Positions 51,266-59,539 of a DNA stretch of 64,000 bases are shown in pieces; positions within the stretch are counted from its first letter, which is position 1, and each line of letters starts with the position of its first letter. Source of the DNA: Cyclobacteriaceae bacterium (GTDB taxonomy: Bacteria > Bacteroidota > Bacteroidia > Cytophagales > Cyclobacteriaceae); contig JANQKF010000013.1 of the NCBI GenBank assembly GCA_028281285.1, positions 310,001-374,000 of the forward strand. Reading direction: 5' to 3'. The notes below the pieces were generated by a model that made no database searches, was not told the DNA's origin, and was given only the letters and a program-made list of their open reading frames with translations. A program made the translations under genes and the position numbers.

Positions 51266-52447
51266 CTATTTACCTTTTCTTCTTGCCATTTCCCGTTTTA
51301 CGAGGGTAAGCTCTCTCCCACTCTGGCCCTTAACAGAAGTATTTTCTTCAGCGCGCCTGATCAAATAAGGAATTGTAGCTTTTATAGGGCCATAGGGTAG
51401 GTATTTGGCCACTTGGAATTGTGAGTTGGCCAGATTGAATGAAATGTTATCACTCATTCCATAGAGTTGTGCGAAGTAGACGCGATCATCATCACGAGCG
51501 ATGCCTTTTTCTTCAATCAAGTGAGTCAGGTGGTAATTGCTTTTCTCATTATGAGATCCGCAGAAAAGCGCAGTATTGTTGATATTTTCAATACAGAACT
51601 CCAACCCCAAATCAAAGTCTCGATCAGAAGATTCCTTATCGGGTTGGATTGGGCTTGGATATCCCATATCCATGGCTCGTTCACGTTCTTTTTCCATATA
51701 AGCTCCCCGTACGAGCTTCGCCCCAAGGAAATAGCCTTTGGCAACTGCATCTTTTTGGGTGTCCTTCAACTCCTGAAGTGCCTCATGTCTATACATTTGA
51801 TAAGTATTATAGATCAGTGCCTTTTCCCGGTTGTATTTCTCCATCATTTCATAAGCCAAATCATCAATCGGCTTTTGAATCCAGGTCTCTTCCGCATCAA
51901 TCAGCACTTTTACACCGAGCTCATGGCCAAGAGCGCAAATCCGATCGACTCGTTCTCTCACCTTCTGAAAAGCACTAACCTCTTCGTCTGTTAGTGTTTC
52001 TTTTGCCTGGATTTTAGCCAGCAAATCAAAGGAACCAATCCCGGTGACTTTAAATGCACCAAACGGGATGTGAGCAGAATTTCCTGCTTTCTCGATAGTT
52101 CTGACAATTTCAGCAGTGGTAGCCTCAAAGCCGGCTTCTGTTTTTTCACCTTCAACTGAGTAGTCAAGGATGGCCCCAATGTTGAACTTGGACATTTGTT
52201 CGGCCGTTCTCTGGCACTCTTCTATGTTTTCACCTCCGCAAAAAATATCGAACAGGGTTCTCTTAATGATCCCTTTTACTGGTAGACCTGATTTTAATGC
52301 TAATTTTGTGAGCGTTGTGCCGGTTTTGACCATGGCACTACTTCCCATTGTGGAAAAAACAAAGTGGATCTTCTTTAGTGTTTTGTCATTCTTTGAAGCA
52401 AAAGCAACTTCCAAATTGTCAAAATCAACGTGTTTCTTGAGATCCAT
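51266..52447 (-). CDS. proline dehydrogenase
   Basis: The 393-residue flavoenzyme oxidises proline to pyrroline-5-carboxylate. Barrel motifs are 'GAILDYSVEGEKTEAGFEATTAEIVRTIEKAG', 'IPFGAFKVTGIGSFDLLAKIQ', 'GVKVLIDAEETWIQKPIDDLAYEMMEKYN', 'YNTYQMYRHEALQEL', 'GYFLGAKLVRGAYMEKERERA' and 'YLPYGPIKATIPYLIRRAEEN', the last with the substrate-binding R-R-x-x-E-N. It is the monofunctional form. The frame extends 27 codons upstream, but the ATG at 52447 is preferred: a promoter-like element lies in the extension and the protein family starts near there. It is divergent from the aromatic cluster. Confidence 0.92.
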   Translation of the reverse strand: MDLKKHVDFDNLEVAFASKNDKTLKKIHFVFSTMGSSAMVKTGTTLTKLALKSGLPVKGIIKRTLFDIFCGGENIEECQRTAEQMSKFNIGAILDYSVEGEKTEAGFEATTAEIVRTIEKAGNSAHIPFGAFKVTGIGSFDLLAKIQAKETLTDEEVSAFQKVRERVDRICALGHELGVKVLIDAEETWIQKPIDDLAYEMMEKYNREKALIYNTYQMYRHEALQELKDTQKDAVAKGYFLGAKLVRGAYMEKERERAMDMGYPSPIQPDKESSDRDFDLGLEFCIENINNTALFCGSHNEKSNYHLTHLIEEKGIARDDDRVYFAQLYGMSDNISFNLANSQFQVAKYLPYGPIKATIPYLIRRAEENTSVKGQSGRELTLVKREMARRKGK

Positions 52448-52463
52448 AGGCTGCGAATTGTCG

Positions 52464-52493
52464 CAAATATAATAACAAACACAGAGTCTGAAA
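52464..52493 (-). promoter_or_regulatory. probable proline dehydrogenase promoter
   Basis: TATATTTG (52471-52464 on the minus strand) exactly fits TAnnTTTG; TTTC lies 18 bases upstream as a weak -33 element. It ends 16 bases before the ATG at 52447 and decides that start. Confidence 0.5.
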
Positions 52494-52527
52494 CTTTTGT
52501 TGTTAGGACGGTAATTATAAGAGAGCA

Positions 52528-53628
52528 ATGCAAATTGAAAGGTTGGAAAACTGGGTTGATGGCCACAAAAAACCGCTGATTATATCTGGGCCGTGTAGTG
52601 TAGAAAGTAAGGGGCAATTCTTCTCTTCAATTGAACAATTGGATTTATCGAAAATTGATTTCATACGGGGGGGCATTTGGAAGCCTCGTACACGGCCGGG
52701 AAGCTTTGAAGGAATTGGCAAGGAAGGCCTTACTTTGATGAAAGCCGCAAAGAAAGAATTCGGAATCAAGGTTTGTACCGAAGTTGCTTCTGCTGAGCAT
52801 GTAGAAGATGCAATTGAAGCAGGCATAGACCTCCTATGGATTGGGGCGAGAACCACAGTGAGTCCATTTAATGTTCAAGAAATTGCTGGAGCATTAAAAG
52901 GAGTGGACATCCCCGTCTTTGTCAAAAATCCTGTGAATCCGGATTTAAGTCTCTGGAAGGGAGCATTGGAACGCCTCTCTAAAGCCGGAATTACGAAACT
53001 CGGAGCGATTCATCGAGGGTTTGATTCACTTCAAAAAACAAAGTTCAGGAATGTGCCTCTTTGGCAAGTTCCGATAGAACTAAAAAGTGAATTTCCTGAT
53101 TTACCTCTCATCTGTGATCCTAGTCATATTGGAGGCAAGAGAGCTTTGATTCATGACATAGCACAAAAAGCCTTGGATTTGAATTATGATGGATTGATGA
53201 TTGAAAGCCATATTAATCCTGCAAAGGCGCTAAGTGATCCAAAACAGCAGCTTGAGCCAAAATCTTTAAATGAATTACTGGAGGTCCTCGAACCGCGTGA
53301 CGCCACTAAGACTGACCGCGTCTTTATCAACCATTTGGAAATAATAAGAGAACAAATTGATCAGGCTGATCGTGAAATACTTGAAGCCATTGCTACCCGC
53401 ATGAATTTGGTGGAGAAAATTGGCGAATACAAGAAAGAGAATAATGTTGCCATTTTTCAGTTAAGTAGATGGAAAGAGATATTCACGACCAGACCGGAAT
53501 GGGCTAGGTCGCTGAATCTTGATCCTGAATTTATAAAGGAACTCTATCGTTTTATTCATCAACAATCGGTTCAAAAGCAGACTGGTATATACAAAGAAGG
53601 AGACAAAGAAACAGATCTAAAAGAATGA
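52528..53628 (+). CDS. DAHP synthase-chorismate mutase fusion, isozyme 1
   Basis: The 366-residue protein joins a KDO8P-like (type I-beta) DAHP synthase (about 1-262) to an AroQ chorismate mutase (about 272-355). DAHP synthase motifs: 'ISGPCSVES', 'GGIWKPRTRPGSFEGIG', 'LLWIGARTTVSPF', 'FVKNPVNPD', 'GAIHRGFDS' and 'ICDPSHIGGKR'. The mutase half keeps the catalytic Arg in 'IIREQID', Arg in 'ATRMNL', Lys in 'GEYKK', Arg in 'LSRWKE' and Gln in 'QSVQKQ'. It makes both the first shikimate intermediate and prephenate. A close paralog is at 54379, and the prephenate dehydratase-like gene follows with a 4-base overlap (ATGA). No leader peptide precedes this copy. Confidence 0.93.
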   Translation: MQIERLENWVDGHKKPLIISGPCSVESKGQFFSSIEQLDLSKIDFIRGGIWKPRTRPGSFEGIGKEGLTLMKAAKKEFGIKVCTEVASAEHVEDAIEAGIDLLWIGARTTVSPFNVQEIAGALKGVDIPVFVKNPVNPDLSLWKGALERLSKAGITKLGAIHRGFDSLQKTKFRNVPLWQVPIELKSEFPDLPLICDPSHIGGKRALIHDIAQKALDLNYDGLMIESHINPAKALSDPKQQLEPKSLNELLEVLEPRDATKTDRVFINHLEIIREQIDQADREILEAIATRMNLVEKIGEYKKENNVAIFQLSRWKEIFTTRPEWARSLNLDPEFIKELYRFIHQQSVQKQTGIYKEGDKETDLKE

Positions 53629-54164
53629 CCAAACTAGGCATACTCGGACCACGACACACCTTTCACGACATAGCACGGTCTAAATTCTTGCCAAATGACC
53701 AATACGTTTTGTATTCTTCCTTCGAAGAAATCTTTCAGGCTTTAAAAAAGGGCCAAATAAAAAGAGCTTTAGTCGCCATAAGGAATAGTACTTCAGGAAT
53801 GGTTGCAAACAATTTAGACCGAATCAAAAAAGAAGGATTCAAGTTGATTGACCAATACGAATTACCGGTCAATTTGTGTTTGGGGAGCAAGGGGATGATG
53901 AAGCTTGAAAAAATCAAAAAGATTTACTCTCATCCGATGGCTATCAAAGAAACTCAGGGTTATTTTTCCAAGTATAGCCATATCACCTTTGTCGCTAGTT
54001 CAAGTACTGCAGGCGCGATTGATGAATTGCAACAAAACGTAAAAGAGCATGCTGCTGTGATCTCGAGTCGTGAGGCGATTGAAGAGAACAATCTCCAATT
54101 GATCTCAGAAAATATTGAGGATCACCCTGATAATTCCACCACCTTTTCATTAATCGAGGTCTAA
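53625..54164 (+). CDS. short prephenate dehydratase-like protein without ACT domain
   Basis: The 179-residue protein matches the catalytic part of prephenate dehydratase but lacks the C-terminal ACT regulatory domain, and several active-site motifs are altered. The family's G-P-x-G-T-F reads GPRHTF (8-13), the E-N-S-x-x-G motif reads R-N-S-T-S-G (53-58), and the T-R-F motif reads T172-T-F174. Bacterial relatives without ACT and with lost T-R-F include prephenate decarboxylases such as BacA, so either dehydration to phenylpyruvate or another prephenate reaction is possible. It is coupled to isozyme 1 (ATGA), and its end is followed by the aromatic attenuator. Confidence 0.75.
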   Translation: MTKLGILGPRHTFHDIARSKFLPNDQYVLYSSFEEIFQALKKGQIKRALVAIRNSTSGMVANNLDRIKKEGFKLIDQYELPVNLCLGSKGMMKLEKIKKIYSHPMAIKETQGYFSKYSHITFVASSSTAGAIDELQQNVKEHAAVISSREAIEENNLQLISENIEDHPDNSTTFSLIEV

Positions 54165-54190
54165 TTCTGCACAAAAACATCCACATATTT

Positions 54191-54219
54191 TTGACTTTTA
54201 AATAAGATGCCTATGTTTA
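54191..54219 (+). promoter_or_regulatory. probable promoter of the attenuated aro operon
   Basis: TTG (54191-54193), an 18-base spacer and TATGTTTA (54212-54219) fit the Bacteroidota consensus but for the last base. The box ends seven bases before the leader-peptide ATG at 54227, so the leader would have almost no 5' untranslated region. Confidence 0.45.
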
Positions 54220-54226
54220 GACCATA

Positions 54227-54301
54227 ATGAGAGCACAAAGACGATTCTATTACTTCTTTTACTTTAGCTGGAGAGATAAAGTCGGATCAGTGCTTGCCTA
54301 A
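54227..54301 (+). CDS. aromatic leader peptide (attenuator)
   Basis: A 24-codon frame from ATG 54227 to TAA 54301 reads M-R-A-Q-R-R-F-Y-Y-F-F-Y-F-S-W-R-D-K-V-G-S-V-L-A. Codons 7-15 (54245-54271) hold eight aromatic codons in nine (Phe 4, Tyr 3, Trp 1). It sits after a promoter-like element and 28 bases before a strong terminator hairpin, upstream of DAHP synthase-chorismate mutase, aroB and aroA. A ribosome short of charged Phe, Tyr or Trp tRNA would stall on these codons. Its last codons (GGATCAGTGCTT, 54284-54295) can pair with the 5' arm of the terminator and would be covered by a ribosome that reaches the stop codon. The reading is by eye. Confidence 0.8.
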   Translation: MRAQRRFYYFFYFSWRDKVGSVLA

Positions 54302-54328
54302 ATAGAAAAAGATAAACTGAAATAAATG

Positions 54329-54359
54329 AAGCCTGGTTCGACAAGAGCCGGGCTTTTTT
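54329..54359 (+). terminator. attenuator terminator before DAHP synthase isozyme 2
   Basis: AAGCCTGGTTC (54329-54339) pairs with GAGCCGGGCTT (54345-54355), an 11-bp stem with two G-U pairs and a GACAA loop, followed by further T to 54359. The competing pair joins 54329-54339 to 54284-54295 in the leader peptide frame (11 pairs, three of them G-U or U-G, with one bulged T at 54291). The two structures exclude each other. The gene start at 54379 lies 20 bases beyond. Confidence 0.85.
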
Positions 54360-54378
54360 GTTACCTAAAACTAAAACG

Positions 54379-55473
54379 ATGGAAGTCACAGATATTGAAG
54401 ATTGGGGACTAGGACTTGAAAAAAACCTACTAATTGCGGGACCCTGCAGTGCAGAAAGTCCCGAGCAAATTGAAGAAATCGCAAAAGGGTTGAGAGGAAG
54501 TCCGACACAACTTTTTCGAGCAGGAGTATGGAAGCCAAGAACCCGACCAGGTTCGTTTGAAGGAAAGGGAACGGAAGCTCTGGGTTGGATGGAGATTGCC
54601 AGGGAACAGCTAGGAATACCGATTACGGTAGAAGTGGCCAATGCTGATCATGTAGAGCAAGCCTTAAAAGCCGGTATTGAAGTGCTTTGGATAGGTGCCA
54701 GAACCACTGTGAATCCTTTCTCGGTTCAGGAGATTAGTGAAGCTTTGAGAGGTGTTGATATACCAGTGATGGTCAAGAACCCCATCAACCCCGATTTGCA
54801 GCTATGGATTGGTGCTTTAGAGCGACTTGAGAAGGTGGGAATACACAAACTCGCAGCGATTCATCGCGGATTCTCCGACCCTTATGAAAAACGATATCGT
54901 AATAAGCCCGAATGGAGCCTACCTATACATTTAAAGCGAATGATCCCCGGGATTTCTGTAATATGCGATCCCAGTCATATATGTGGTACACGAGAAATAG
55001 TTGCGTCAGTGTCTCAACGCGCCATAAACTTCGGTTTGGATGGATTGATGATTGAAACACATCATGAACCTGATAATGCCCTTAGTGATTCCAAGCAGCA
55101 AATTACTCCTGAAACATTAAAGATCATCTATGAGAACCTAGCGTTCAGAGATACTATTGACGAGCACCCGGAGGTAATATCGGAACTCGATAAATTCCGT
55201 CATAAGATCGACCTCCTGGACAGCCAATTATTGGAGCTGCTGGCCGAACGTTTCGATGTAATTCAGCATATTGGCGAATACAAACGCGAGCATAATTTAG
55301 CCGTATATCAACCCGACAGATGGCAAAGTGTTATGGAGTCCAGAATCAAAGCCGGAGTGAATAAAAACCTGACCGAAAAATTCATGAAAAATCTTTTATT
55401 TGCTATTCATGAAGAATCCGTGAAAAAGCAGGAGGCTCAACTAAAAGAAGCAGCTACAGTTCAAAAATCATGA
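54379..55473 (+). CDS. DAHP synthase-chorismate mutase fusion, isozyme 2 (attenuated)
   Basis: The 364-residue protein is a full paralog of the one at 52528: 'IAGPCSAESPEQIEEIAKGL', 'AGVWKPRTRPGSFEGKG', 'LWIGARTTVNPF', 'MVKNPINPD', 'AAIHRGFSD', 'ICDPSHICGTRE', then a chorismate mutase half with 'FRHKIDLLDSQLLELLAERFDVIQHIGEYKRE', 'YQPDRWQSV' and 'EESVKKQ'. It keeps the catalytic residues in both parts. The frame extends to a TTG at 54358, but that codon lies in the T tract of the terminator, so the ATG at 54379 is the start. It is the first gene of a coupled run with aroB (ATGA overlap) and aroA, all under the aromatic leader. Confidence 0.93.
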   Translation: MEVTDIEDWGLGLEKNLLIAGPCSAESPEQIEEIAKGLRGSPTQLFRAGVWKPRTRPGSFEGKGTEALGWMEIAREQLGIPITVEVANADHVEQALKAGIEVLWIGARTTVNPFSVQEISEALRGVDIPVMVKNPINPDLQLWIGALERLEKVGIHKLAAIHRGFSDPYEKRYRNKPEWSLPIHLKRMIPGISVICDPSHICGTREIVASVSQRAINFGLDGLMIETHHEPDNALSDSKQQITPETLKIIYENLAFRDTIDEHPEVISELDKFRHKIDLLDSQLLELLAERFDVIQHIGEYKREHNLAVYQPDRWQSVMESRIKAGVNKNLTEKFMKNLLFAIHEESVKKQEAQLKEAATVQKS

Positions 55474-56504
55474 GCAAAATTGTCATCGATCAAATAGAGA
55501 ACTCTTTGCCAGATTATTTCGAAGGACTGACATTCTCGAAGTTAGCGGTCCTGGTCGATGAGAATACACGAAGGGATTGTCTCCCAATCATCTCTGAGTT
55601 GATTCCAATCGACCTGATCATTGAAATCGCAAGTGGTGAAGCCAATAAAACCCTCACCACCTGCTCCAGAATCTGGCAGGCACTCACTGATGCGGAGTTT
55701 GATCGACATAGCATTTTGATTAATCTCGGTGGAGGAGTAATAGGCGATATGGGAGGTTTCTGTGCTTCTACCTATAAAAGGGGGATAAGCTTCATCAATA
55801 TCCCAACCACTCTATTGGCTTCTGTTGATGCCAGTGTAGGTGGAAAGTTAGGAATTGATTTTAATGGATTTAAGAATCACATAGGTCTATTCAGAGAGCC
55901 TGAAGCAGTTTTAGTGGATGACATATTCCTCCAAACATTACCTAAGGAGGAATTAAGATCAGGTTTCGCGGAAGTACTCAAACATGGACTCATCGCTGAT
56001 ATCGATTATTTCAAGCAGGTATCCAGTCAGGGGTTAGATCATGAGAATTGGAAGCCAATAATTGCTCATTCCATACATATCAAGAATGAGGTAGTCAAAA
56101 GCGATCCAAGTGAGGCAGGACTTAGAAAAGTATTGAACTTCGGACATACCGTAGGGCACGCTTTGGAGAGCCATTTTCTAGGAACCTCTAATCATCTACT
56201 CCATGGTGAGGCAATCGCAATTGGAATGATCTGCGAGGCTTACCTCTCCCTGAAAATGCTCGGGCTTTCAAAACACAATCTTGATGAAATCACATCCTCA
56301 CTGGTAAGTAATTTTGGCAAGGTTAAAATCAATAGGAAAGAACTTCCTGACATTGTAAAGCATACTTATCAAGACAAGAAAAATCTGAATGGGAATCTCA
56401 ACTTTTCATTGCTCAAATCGATTGGAGAGGCGACTTTTGACATTCAGGTGAATGAAAATGATGTAATTGATTCGCTGTTTTATTACCTTCAAATAGCCGA
56501 CTAG
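55470..56504 (+). CDS. aroB: 3-dehydroquinate synthase
   Basis: The 344-residue enzyme converts DAHP to 3-dehydroquinate, step two of the shikimate pathway. NAD-binding 'NLGGGVIGDMGGFCASTYKRGISFINIPTTLLASVDASVGGKLGIDF' is intact, and the metal site appears as Glu in 'RSGFAEVLKHGLI', His in 'FGHTVGHALESHF' and His in 'LLHGEAIAIGM'. Length is close to the family norm (about 350). It overlaps isozyme 2 by four bases (ATGA) and precedes aroA by two bases, so all three should be made together. Confidence 0.94.
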   Translation: MSKIVIDQIENSLPDYFEGLTFSKLAVLVDENTRRDCLPIISELIPIDLIIEIASGEANKTLTTCSRIWQALTDAEFDRHSILINLGGGVIGDMGGFCASTYKRGISFINIPTTLLASVDASVGGKLGIDFNGFKNHIGLFREPEAVLVDDIFLQTLPKEELRSGFAEVLKHGLIADIDYFKQVSSQGLDHENWKPIIAHSIHIKNEVVKSDPSEAGLRKVLNFGHTVGHALESHFLGTSNHLLHGEAIAIGMICEAYLSLKMLGLSKHNLDEITSSLVSNFGKVKINRKELPDIVKHTYQDKKNLNGNLNFSLLKSIGEATFDIQVNENDVIDSLFYYLQIAD

Positions 56505-56506
56505 GA

Positions 56507-57727
56507 TTGGAAGTTAAACACTTAGCATATAGCCCAAGATTAGCTGAGACAAGCATCAACCTCCCAGCTTCCAAAAGTGAGAGCAATCGTGCTTTAATCA
56601 TCAATGCCTTAGCTGGTCAGGAATCAACCATTTCCAACCTTTCCGAAGCTCGCGATACCCAGACTATGACCAGACTTCTTCAAAGTAAAGATGAAGAACT
56701 GGATGTTATTGATGCTGGAACAACCATGAGATTTCTCGCAGCCTATTTTGCCGTGGGAGATGATAAAAAAGTGCTTACAGGAACTCAGCGGATGCAGGAA
56801 CGACCAATTGATATTTTAGTAAAGGCACTAAATAAAATTGGAGCAAGAATTACCTACGAAAACAACCCTGGATTTCCTCCGATCAAGATCAAGCCATTTA
56901 AACGTCAACTAAAAAACGAGATCAAAGTCAGAGGTGATCAAAGCAGTCAGTTTATTTCAGCACTTTTAATGATAGCCCCAGTGCTTCCTGAAGGACTAAC
57001 CGTGAAGATTAAAGGTCCGCTAGGCAGTAAACCCTACATCCAAATGACATTAGATATGATGTCGGTGTTTGGAATTGACTATGACTGGACAGGTGAGTTG
57101 ATTACTGTTGCCCATCAAGATTATCAACCATACCCTTTTAAAGTGGAATCTGATTGGTCAGGAGCCAGCTACTGGTACAGTCTGGTTGCCTTAGCCGAGA
57201 GTGCCAACATCAAGTTACTGGGACTCAGGCAGAAGTCGATTCAAGGGGATGTGGCAATTGTCAGCATCATGAACCAGTTGGGGGTAATGAGCACATTTGA
57301 GGAAGACGGTGTCGTTTTAGGCAAAATTCCACACCGCGATCATTTTGAATATGATTTCACCGATTGTCCTGATCTAGCACAAACTGTCGCTGTTACTTGT
57401 GCTGCAAAGCATATTACCTGCCATATGACTGGATTGGAAAGTCTGAGAATAAAAGAAACTGATCGAATCAAGGCTCTAAAAAGGGAATTGAAAAAACTAG
57501 GAGCCAAATTCAAGGAAATTGAGCCGGGAGTTTGGGAAGTGAAGTCGAAGTTTGATGCAGGTGCCAATGAAATCTCCATCGATACCTATGACGATCATCG
57601 AATGGCTATGGCCTTTGCTCCTCTCGCAACCATGCAGAGTTTAACTATCCAAAACCCAAGTGTTGTCGTTAAATCATATCCGAATTTTTGGAATGATCTT
57701 GCGAAAGCCGGGATTTCACAATCATAG
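56507..57727 (+). CDS. aroA: 3-phosphoshikimate 1-carboxyvinyltransferase (EPSP synthase)
   Basis: The 406-residue enzyme adds phosphoenolpyruvate to shikimate-3-phosphate. It has 'LPASKSESNRALIINALAG' near residue 19, 'VIDAGTTMRFLAAYFAVG' near 70, 'TGTQRMQERPIDILVKALNKIGA', 'GDQSSQFISALLMIAPVLPEG', 'DCPDLAQTVAVTCAAKHITCHMTGLESLRIKETDRIKALKREL' and 'YDDHRMAMAFAPLA'. The start is a TTG two bases after the aroB stop, and the conserved N-terminus begins soon after. It is shorter than the E. coli enzyme (427). Genes aroK, aroE, aroQ and aroC are not in the window. Confidence 0.94.
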   Translation: MEVKHLAYSPRLAETSINLPASKSESNRALIINALAGQESTISNLSEARDTQTMTRLLQSKDEELDVIDAGTTMRFLAAYFAVGDDKKVLTGTQRMQERPIDILVKALNKIGARITYENNPGFPPIKIKPFKRQLKNEIKVRGDQSSQFISALLMIAPVLPEGLTVKIKGPLGSKPYIQMTLDMMSVFGIDYDWTGELITVAHQDYQPYPFKVESDWSGASYWYSLVALAESANIKLLGLRQKSIQGDVAIVSIMNQLGVMSTFEEDGVVLGKIPHRDHFEYDFTDCPDLAQTVAVTCAAKHITCHMTGLESLRIKETDRIKALKRELKKLGAKFKEIEPGVWEVKSKFDAGANEISIDTYDDHRMAMAFAPLATMQSLTIQNPSVVVKSYPNFWNDLAKAGISQS

Positions 57728-57790
57728 AAAAGTGAAAATGGAATCTTTCATCATCCACTTGGGTTAATGTCATTGCGAAGACATTTTTAA

Positions 57791-59539
57791 ATGGCAAAAT
57801 CAAAGTTATCCAATATTACCGTAGGCCAGGTTTTCAAAACCATTATTTGGCCCAAACGTGGCCTACTACTCCTTGGTTTAGTGCTTATCTTATTAAGAAG
57901 TGGTGCTAGTGTTGTTCTACCAAAAGCTACACAATACTTATTAGATGATGTGGTAATCAACAAGGACATGTATATGCTCAAGGTAGTGGTGGCGGTCATC
58001 GTAGGAGCCATCATTGTCCAGGCTTCAACCTCCTTTGCTTTGACTCGAATTTTGAGTGTCCAAGCGCAAAAACTCATTGCTCAACTAAGGGTTCAGGTTC
58101 AAAAGAAGATACTTTCACTCCCGATAAATTACTTCGACAGCACCAAATCAGGTGCCCTTGTTTCAAGAATCATGACAGATGTTGAAGGAGTGAGAAATCT
58201 TGTCGGGACCGGTTTTGTCCAATTGATTGGAGGAACAATCACAGCAATTTTTGTTTTGTTTCTGCTTATAGATATGAATGCAAAGCTCACTGCTTTCATT
58301 TTCGTTCCTGTTGTGGTCTTCGGCTTGATCGCCATGCGTGCCTTTGGATATCTGAGACCTATTTTTCGAAAGCGTGGAAAACTCAATGCTGAAGTTACGG
58401 GTAGATTAACCGAAACTTTGAATGGGATTCGAGTAATTAAAGGGTTTGGTGCAGAGTTGCAGGAAATCGTCACATTCGAAAGGGGGGTTGATGAACTCTA
58501 TCAAAACGTGAAAAAGACTTTGACTGCAACCGCTCTCGTTCAGAGTTCTGCTACATTTCTTCTTGCCGGTGTGGCCAGTACCGGGATACTCGGCATTGGA
58601 GGCTATTTCATTATAGAAGATCAAATGTCGAGCGGTCAGCTTGTCGCATTTATTGGGTTACTGGCAGTGCTCATTGCACCAATCGTACAGATGTCTAATA
58701 TTGGCAGTCAAATCACCGAAGCCTTTGCGGGTCTTGACAGGACGGAGGAAATCATGATGACCAAGGCGGAAGACGAAGACGAAAATAGAACGGTTACCAT
58801 TGATAAAACTCATGGAGACATTGTATTCAATGAGGTCACTTTTGCCTACGATGAAGGTGTGGATGTGCTTAAGAAAATCAGCTTCAAGGCTCCTCCGGGT
58901 AGTGTTACTGCCCTTGTAGGTTCCTCAGGCTCAGGTAAATCCACCATAGCCGGTTTGGCAGCCACATTCCTAAAACCCATAGAGGGTCAAATAACCCTTG
59001 ATGGAATTGACTTGTCAACAGTCAACCTGAAAAGCTATCGCAGAAACTTGGGAGTAGTTCTTCAAGATGATTTCCTTTTTGAGGGTACGATCAGAGAAAA
59101 TATTCTTTTCCCAAGACCGGAATCAACCGATGAAGAATTAAAGATCGCTGTGGATGCGGCTTATGTAAGTGAATTTACAGATCGTTTCGAAGATGGGCTG
59201 GATACACTCATTGGCGAACGCGGGGTAAAACTTTCAGGCGGACAACGGCAGCGGATAGCTATTGCTCGGGCTATCTTGGCCAATCCTAAAATTCTCATTC
59301 TTGATGAGGCTACTTCCAACTTAGACACGGAAAGTGAAACTTTCATCCAGCGCAGTTTGGCAGAATTGATGAAAGGCCGTACTACTTTTGTGATCGCCCA
59401 CCGACTCAGTACCATCCGGCAAGCCGACCAAATCCTTGTAATTGAAGAAGGTGAAATTGCTGAAAGGGGCACCCATGACGAACTCATTCAAAAAGAAGGA
59501 AGGTACTATCAACTCTATACATATCAGGCCAGAATTTAG
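57791..59539 (+). CDS. ABC exporter with fused permease and ATPase, MsbA-like
   Basis: The 582-residue half-transporter has six membrane spans in residues about 20-310 and an ATPase domain in about 345-582. Walker A GSSGSGKST is at 377-385, the signature LSGGQ at 481-485, Walker B ILILDE at 501-506 and the H-loop at H537. It fits the type IV exporter group (MsbA, multidrug or lipid exporters), and forms a homodimer or heterodimer. No partner half-transporter is adjacent. In Bacteroidota such a gene is a candidate lipid A-core flippase, but a drug exporter cannot be excluded. Confidence 0.92.
   Translation: MAKSKLSNITVGQVFKTIIWPKRGLLLLGLVLILLRSGASVVLPKATQYLLDDVVINKDMYMLKVVVAVIVGAIIVQASTSFALTRILSVQAQKLIAQLRVQVQKKILSLPINYFDSTKSGALVSRIMTDVEGVRNLVGTGFVQLIGGTITAIFVLFLLIDMNAKLTAFIFVPVVVFGLIAMRAFGYLRPIFRKRGKLNAEVTGRLTETLNGIRVIKGFGAELQEIVTFERGVDELYQNVKKTLTATALVQSSATFLLAGVASTGILGIGGYFIIEDQMSSGQLVAFIGLLAVLIAPIVQMSNIGSQITEAFAGLDRTEEIMMTKAEDEDENRTVTIDKTHGDIVFNEVTFAYDEGVDVLKKISFKAPPGSVTALVGSSGSGKSTIAGLAATFLKPIEGQITLDGIDLSTVNLKSYRRNLGVVLQDDFLFEGTIRENILFPRPESTDEELKIAVDAAYVSEFTDRFEDGLDTLIGERGVKLSGGQRQRIAIARAILANPKILILDEATSNLDTESETFIQRSLAELMKGRTTFVIAHRLSTIRQADQILVIEEGEIAERGTHDELIQKEGRYYQLYTYQARI

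Follow-up and report, generated by a model that had tools for sequence, protein, structure and literature searches.

A predicted phenylalanine/tyrosine leader-peptide attenuator before a DAHP synthase operon of Cyclobacteriaceae and its candidate relatives in Bacteroidota

A 64,000-nucleotide stretch from a Cyclobacteriaceae bacterium (the window; contig JANQKF010000013.1, positions 310,001 to 374,000) carries a short reading frame crowded with aromatic codons, and behind it a transcription terminator, before its second gene for 3-deoxy-D-arabino-heptulosonate 7-phosphate (DAHP) synthase-chorismate mutase. The sequence and its comparison across related genomes suggest that this is very probably a ribosome-mediated transcription attenuator, which reads the supply of tRNA-Phe and tRNA-Tyr in charged form and governs an operon made up of DAHP synthase-chorismate mutase, aroB and an aroA-like gene. 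A first-pass annotation, made by a model from the letters of the window, had proposed a leader-peptide attenuator before these three genes, and the comparison of relatives supports it. What is read from the sequence is the open reading frame (ORF) and its conservation, the position of a promoter box, and three alternative helices that co-vary.

The leader frame and its conservation

The 24-codon frame reads as the first-pass annotation had it, with eight aromatic codons among codons 7-15 (Table 1). Seven consecutive F/Y codons (TWY x7) occur once in the window, at 54245, and a single one of 100 dinucleotide-shuffled versions of the whole window contained the pattern.

A protein search among contigs of one genome per species returned 482 relatives of the DAHP synthase-chorismate mutase, and the best 80 of the 482 were examined; by name these are Roseivirga, Cyclobacteriaceae genera or unclassified relatives, with one locus (L078) labelled Spirosoma. 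Taking the best short ORF in the 420 nucleotides upstream of each gene and counting aromatic codons per nine, we found eight in 67 loci and seven in 9. Seven or eight aromatic codons in nine are thus kept in 76/80 orthologous loci, against 1/546 control regions upstream of other ORFs of at least 150 amino acids in the same loci (eight in one region, seven in none, six in six and five in forty). The remaining loci have six (L048 and L055), five (L096) and four (L078). A cut-off of five in nine is unspecific, as 47/546 control regions reach it, and L048, L055 and L096 are therefore counted as leaders by place, box and terminator rather than by codon number. An automatic rule found the terminator in 75/80 rows, and the missed L035, L040, L041, L043 and L046 show it on further inspection. 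The first-pass annotation had named loci that keep the terminator after losing the aromatic frame as the finding that would speak against it; checked on these 80 loci, the proposal was not refuted.

The encoded peptides are clearly related, reading YFTFFYFYFR..RIGAAYCL in the Cyclobacteriaceae type and FYYFFYFS or YFYFFYF in the Roseivirga type. The window derives from a Roseivirga-like genome, the best public-genome matches of its DAHP synthase being mostly named Roseivirga. Both aroB and the aroA-like gene follow downstream in 14/14 Roseivirga-type loci (L033-L046), and in 65/66 and 64/66 of the others, respectively.

A covariance model, R1, built from 54 leaders including that of the window (alignment A1), matches 113/390 genomes of the order at E<=0.01. 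By model score, fifty-six of these genomes lie below E 3e-12, all of them in the window's own family, in which a minimum of eight genomes lack any R1 match. Thirty-five regions of more distant DAHP synthase-chorismate mutase genes were retrieved, one without upstream sequence, and 0/34 readable ones reach seven aromatic codons in nine, the highest count being six. One genome of this distant set (G035) has an F/Y leader preceding pheA instead; the site is on the strand of DAHP synthase and some 3 kb upstream of it.

Alternative helices and the promoter box

Folding of 54227-54380, a check that the first-pass annotation had proposed, gives a z of -4.4, with 0/200 shuffles as low. The strongest hairpin is the terminator (54328-54359), a 12-pair stem at 54328-54356 with a T tail, 19 bases 5′ of the DAHP synthase gene and the same stem that had been placed before the ATG at 54379. 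It is the best among four terminator-like sites in 52300-58200; since shuffles lead one to expect 5.0, the number of sites is uninformative and the length of the stem informative. Its bases 54329-54339, which pair with 54345-54355, are shared with an antiterminator (2:3) formed by 54281-54295 and 54329-54342. This helix had been predicted with about 11 pairs and is present, in a longer form that has 14 bp and a single bulged U, at -20.9 kcal/mol and a z of -5.8 relative to shuffles. An RNA that ends at 54344, without the terminator 3′ arm, adopts the antiterminator (-18.0, z -4.5, 0/200 shuffles), and once that arm is present the terminator wins (-25.5). Close to the start codon, GAGCAC at 54231-54236 pairs with 54290-54295 (1:2). 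The layout of the window is the classical 1:2 / 2:3 / 3:4, completed by a weaker hairpin near the start, with 9 nucleotides from the end of the codon run to region 2 and 3 nucleotides from region 2 to the stop codon.

The alternative helices co-vary among relatives, which supports the earlier proposal. We compared pairing energies within species with those of permuted species over 5000 permutations, a test in which relatedness remains. In a set of 18 (15 Roseivirga-type rows including the window, with L047, L055 and L101), matched energies were -17.01 against -14.00 kcal/mol for 2:3 and -10.62 against -8.72 kcal/mol for 1:2, and across 79 rows (the window in, L096 and L078 out) -18.18 against -16.53 and -11.83 against -10.64, respectively, with 0/5000 permutations in every case. 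The 2:3 pairing is stronger than its own shuffles (z < -1.64) in 79/79 rows. In the 15 Roseivirga-type rows (alignment A3), three pairs changed on both sides are found in 2:3, whose column count used 11 of the window's 14 pairs, and three in 3:4; pairing cells amount to 90.3% and 97.6%, compared with at most 54.5% and 60.6% in slid versions.

The promoter-like box that the first-pass annotation had recognized is present, and its position relative to the leader is conserved. A box of the TAnnTTT[GA] type ends exactly 4 nucleotides before the leader start codon in 69/80 rows and 3-7 nucleotides before it in 78/80, while L052 and L101 have no such box before the leader start. For a box at 3-7 nucleotides, shuffled upstream sequence gives a mean of 1.64 and a maximum of 5, and the same spacing occurs in 9/685 ORFs of at least 150 amino acids in the window and the same loci, with the first ATG taken as ORF start. 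TTG lies 16-21 nucleotides upstream of the -7 box in 71/78 box-bearing leaders. In Flavobacterium psychrophilum the -7 box spans -12 to -5 (PMC9723704; here and below, papers are cited for their accessible parts), so with a gap of 4 nucleotides the start codon begins at +1. The leader mRNAs are predicted to be leaderless, with the start on the start codon in 69/80 rows, and the relatives strengthen the leaderless suggestion of the first-pass annotation. Leaderless mRNAs make up 5.5% of the mRNAs examined in F. psychrophilum (PMC9723704), and in Bacteroides thetaiotaomicron about 3.7% of 5′ regions are reported to be shorter than 10 nucleotides.

Table 1. Positions of the putative attenuator, its promoter elements and the genes behind it in the window
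Feature	Position	Strand	Evidence
-33-like TTTG element of leader promoter	54190..54193	+	TTG upstream of the box in relatives
-7-like box TATGTTTA (Bacteroidota consensus TAnnTTTG)	54212..54219	+	position relative to leader start in relatives
Leader peptide ORF MRAQRRFYYFFYFSWRDKVGSVLA	54227..54301	+	sequence; conservation in relatives
Region 1, GAGCAC (1:2 protector hairpin; partner 54290-54295)	54231..54236	+	folding; species-matched pairing
Control codons F-Y-Y-F-F-Y-F-S-W	54245..54271	+	codon-run scan; run composition in 79 rows
Region 2 GUCGGAUCAGUGCUU, antiterminator 5′ arm, within the leader's final codons	54281..54295	+	pairing energy; alignment; truncated-RNA fold
Region 3 AAGCCUGGUUCGAC, antiterminator 3′ arm (54329-54339 also terminator 5′ arm)	54329..54342	+	pairing; alignment
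Region 4, terminator 3′ arm (T run 54354-54359)	54345..54355	+	folding; terminator scan; alignment
DAHP synthase-chorismate mutase, second copy, first controlled gene	54379..55473	+	PF00793 and PF01817 above curated cut-off
aroB, 3-dehydroquinate synthase	55470..56504	+	PF01761, PF24621
aroA-like ORF	56507..57727	+	name from the first-pass annotation; homologue follows aroB in relatives

Predicted mechanism and competing explanations

From this arrangement we infer the transcription start, translation, stalling, the response to amino acids and the reach of the ribosome, which would work together as follows. Transcription would begin almost at the leader ATG, so that a ribosome can load on the 5′ end of the mRNA without an upstream binding site. 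When Phe or Tyr is short, the ribosome would stop in the F/Y run, covering region 1 and leaving region 2 free to take region 3; the terminator would then not form and the operon would be transcribed. When both amino acids are plentiful, the ribosome would proceed to the stop codon (54299-54301) and lie over region 2 in this genome, whereupon region 3 would pair with region 4 and transcription would stop. Without translation, region 1 would hold region 2 and termination would again be favoured. A ribosome would reach about 15 nucleotides to either side, and with 3 nucleotides between region 2 and the stop codon it would cover region 2 in the window. In the Roseivirga-type leaders L035, L040, L044 and L045 the stop codon lies at the beginning of region 2, and a ribosome there would also reach it.

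Several observations weigh against this scheme. The stop codon lies 14-21 nucleotides past region 2 in 53/64 other leaders, so that region 2 would stay uncovered there and the re-forming of 1:2 behind the ribosome would have to do more; the 1:2 hairpin itself has z < -1.64 in just 31/79 rows (-1.44 in the window). The control on column covariation is moderate, the observed values being reached by 4-32/500 shuffles for 2:3 and 1-142/500 for 3:4, in rows that are related. The outer three 2:3 pairs are not general, one being gapped in 11/15 rows and another often unpaired, and the pair 54290-54333 is unpaired in 8/15. The window is among the exceptions in that its box lies 7 nucleotides, not 4, before the ATG; this corrects the first-pass annotation, which had put the start almost at the ATG, to a predicted start about 3 nucleotides before it. 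Finally, L078 is without a leader and its upstream region looks unrelated, and L096 has lost part of the run through a frame change within it. The latter locus belongs to Nitritalea halalkaliphila; the second half of its run reads Leu rather than F/Y, and it may be a decayed element or a sequencing error.

A nascent peptide that arrests the ribosome, as in TnaC, would sense the peptide sequence rather than codon supply, and one feature of the leaders speaks for it. A set of 59 Cyclobacteriaceae-type leaders keeps three residues behind region 2, Tyr (in 59), Cys (in 55) and Leu (in 53), as well as an Arg behind the run (in 57), while the codons of all four vary synonymously and the 2:3 pairing alone does not demand these residues; the conservation of Tyr-Cys-Leu behind region 2 at the amino-acid level is unaccounted for by the attenuation model. 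The Roseivirga-type leaders, however, share the F/Y run and lack the Y-C-L tail. Leaders of like build, described below, also match their own genes by sequence, which supports codon sensing: Tyr runs stand before the genes of phenylalanine 4-monooxygenase (phhA) and tyrosyl-tRNA synthetase (tyrS), His runs before hisH, F/Y runs before pheA and Thr/Ile runs before aspartokinase. In particular, the residue repeated in the Tyr, His and Thr/Ile leaders is one that the following gene produces or consumes, as expected of codons that are sensed, and we regard peptide arrest as improbable.

We give still less weight to explanations that dispense with the leader. The prephenate-dehydratase-like gene upstream, which has the same orientation, ends at 54164, where a terminator would be normal, and the element could be its ordinary intergenic terminator accompanied by a chance ORF. 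A chance ORF is ruled out by the leader counts (76/80 against 1/546) and by the co-variation; frame, codons and box are conserved and the antiterminator co-varies. Moreover, 55 of the 66 non-Roseivirga-type loci have a prephenate-dehydratase match, whose median position is 3629 nucleotides downstream from where DAHP synthase starts (range -758 to 4845), and which is therefore commonly not the leader's upstream neighbour, which leaves this explanation with a negligible probability. A metabolite-binding riboswitch or a T-box has nothing in its favour besides the terminator and is equally remote: no Rfam family matches the window at gathering score, and what matches around the leader at E<=10 (leaders, small RNAs and families without relation) stays far below the respective gathering score in every case. 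Phe_leader (RF01859) scores 18.0 bits against the window (gathering score 55), and Bacteroid-trp (RF01692) has no match at gathering and is unlisted at E<=10. Rfam scans of related loci, which covered seven of the best 80 orthologous loci, gave leader-type matches that were all below gathering scores in 16 loci at E<=1, and one tRNA (L101) and nothing else at gathering in 34 further loci. One locus (L196:2458-2581) has a match resembling the thiamine pyrophosphate riboswitch, at 42.6 bits, below the gathering score of 54.3.

The Phe/Tyr attenuator that we favour would sense fewer amino acids than the first-pass annotation had supposed. Of the three aromatic residues it had named, the Phe/Tyr run is conserved, whereas Trp is not: the nine-residue runs of the 79 rows contain 383 F, 232 Y and 4 W, with W in 4/79 runs, the window's included, and in 6/79 leaders overall. 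Most relatives being without it, the Trp codon is not confirmed as regulatory, and in the window it is probably incidental. In a variant compatible with the Phe/Tyr reading, Trp codon 15 would be functional in this lineage and the leader would sense all three aromatics. DAHP synthase supplies all three aromatic pathways, which counts for Trp sensing, and TGG is found in both the window and its closest relative (L034). Given how rare W is, and that the window's Trp is the final codon of the run, nearest region 2, we consider this variant doubtful.

A wider family of leaders and known systems

Leaders of this build are found before other genes. Twenty weaker full-length R1 matches, hand-chosen from a longer list, were fetched, 17 with a matching leader and three without. 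Of the 17, eight are Tyr-rich and precede phhA, four have a His run and precede a hisH-like gene, three are F/Y leaders upstream of a prephenate dehydratase gene, one is a Tyr leader upstream of a tyrosyl-tRNA synthetase gene, and the last, from another family, is an F/Y/W leader preceding DAHP synthase. A second model, R2, built from 27 leaders, matches 35/345 genomes of the class at E<=0.001. The 26 class-level loci read comprise one aro, six phhA, 12 pheA and five aspartokinase leaders and two without a leader; L221 is the same site as L190. One representative per gene type (phhA, hisH, pheA, tyrS, aspartokinase) scores above the Pfam curated cut-off, and the rest were assigned by likeness of the printed sequence. 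With NCBIfam, phhA, hisH and tyrS are above cut-off and pheA and aspartokinase, queried as 200-residue pieces, below.

The genome of the window itself has such an element outside the window (G000:C28:10700-10845; L178, 1001-1146), where a Tyr-run leader, MINRNAYYYHYYHNPMLRNGSAM, and a terminator precede phhA; from its sequence it is likely a tyrosine-sensing attenuator. Eight weak R2 matches in the same genome (E 0.29 to 4.1) are not leaders. His-run leaders stand before hisH-like genes in L186, L188, L191 and L195, with the box 4-7 nucleotides before the ATG in all four. In other families of the class (L212-L214, L220 and L232), leaders rich in Thr and Ile (TTIITIITTG and similar) precede aspartokinase and resemble the enterobacterial thr leader peptide. 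The strength of the codon run varies: the phhA leader L217 has just a short Y-D-Y-Y-F, and the aspartokinase leader L220 is mostly Ile.

The 2:3 pairing has z < -1.64 in 33/39 leaders of this wider set, and in a simple test two of the four His leaders pair no better than shuffles. The box lies 3-7 nucleotides from the ATG in 11/14 phhA and 4/4 his leaders, and in 0/14 pheA leaders, 0/5 aspartokinase leaders and neither the tyrS leader nor L187, near-matches being uncounted, such as one 5 nucleotides from the ATG in the pheA leader L192. As the models included the box, their leads are biased to it; even so, they recovered two groups that are without it, pheA and aspartokinase. That a model built from aro leaders finds the phhA and his leaders suggests an RNA frame common to the three.

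Taken together, these data incline us, by a narrow margin, to a joint reading in which Bacteroidota have an attenuator family with one RNA frame and exchanged codons, namely Phe/Tyr at DAHP synthase, Tyr at phhA and tyrS, and His at hisH. The aro, phhA and his leaders would start at the mRNA 5′ end, and the pheA and thrA branches would have ordinary 5′ leaders. Only transcripts from the own promoter would load a ribosome and be open to antitermination, and readthrough from upstream would be stopped. If so, some of its members would be the first leader-peptide attenuators that read tyrosine alone, of which, to our knowledge, none was known earlier.

Leader-peptide attenuators of aromatic genes are established in enteric bacteria. 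The E. coli pheL/pheA leader (RF01859) likewise combines a run of aromatic codons with terminator and antiterminator in transcription attenuation, but its codons are for Phe and it governs the Phe branch. By description, the closest known system is aroR of Corynebacterium glutamicum, upstream of aroF, where ribosomes stalling on a leader peptide (Phe-Tyr-Phe) likewise control an operon for DAHP synthase (Neshat et al. 2014, as described in PMC11802643). It differs from the window in phylum and in having three aromatic residues rather than eight, and it is reported to respond to Phe, with Tyr having no effect (PMC11802643). Start codons at the transcript 5′ end are described for trpL of Sinorhizobium meliloti (PMC7298713) and the ilvB leader of Corynebacterium diphtheriae (PMC5784534), but these concern Trp and Ile/Val, respectively, in other phyla.

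Within Bacteroidota, the Bacteroid-trp RNA (RF01692) is listed as a cis-regulatory RNA (PMC2864571), and its name links it to trp genes. The 2021 transcriptome of F. psychrophilum offers attenuation candidates at amino-acid biosynthesis operons, as in the window, and reports strong clues for leader-peptide attenuation, with peptides, operons and leaderless starts unnamed in its accessible part (PMC9723704). According to the accessible part of a 2010 survey (PMC2965389), such leader-peptide systems had until then been demonstrated in Proteobacteria and Actinobacteria alone, to which the survey added Firmicutes. For Bacteroidota, the accessible literature yielded no attenuator in front of phhA or of DAHP synthase, an absence that is no proof. 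Relative to the literature examined, what is new is the Bacteroidota branch, the usual leaderless start before DAHP synthase and the Tyr members, the kind of mechanism being known. As far as that literature shows, RNA-level control of amino-acid synthesis in Bacteroidota, which are without Shine-Dalgarno sites (PMC9723704), is little charted. The element would be a compact, testable control at the entry of the shikimate pathway, for which the Tyr-run leader in the same genome provides a natural contrast, and it offers a clean case of how ribosomes load on leaderless messages early enough to steer the polymerase.

Some features of the surrounding genes complete the picture. NCBIfam model matches of the controlled DAHP synthase-chorismate mutase are all below cut-off. 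Upstream, the window holds another copy of this gene and a 179-amino-acid prephenate dehydratase domain protein, the like-named neighbour mentioned above (52528-54164). No leader precedes this first copy (52528), the top ORF upstream of it having only four aromatic codons in nine. Both genes are also upstream in 14/14 Roseivirga-type loci, and transcripts originating in them could enter the attenuator.

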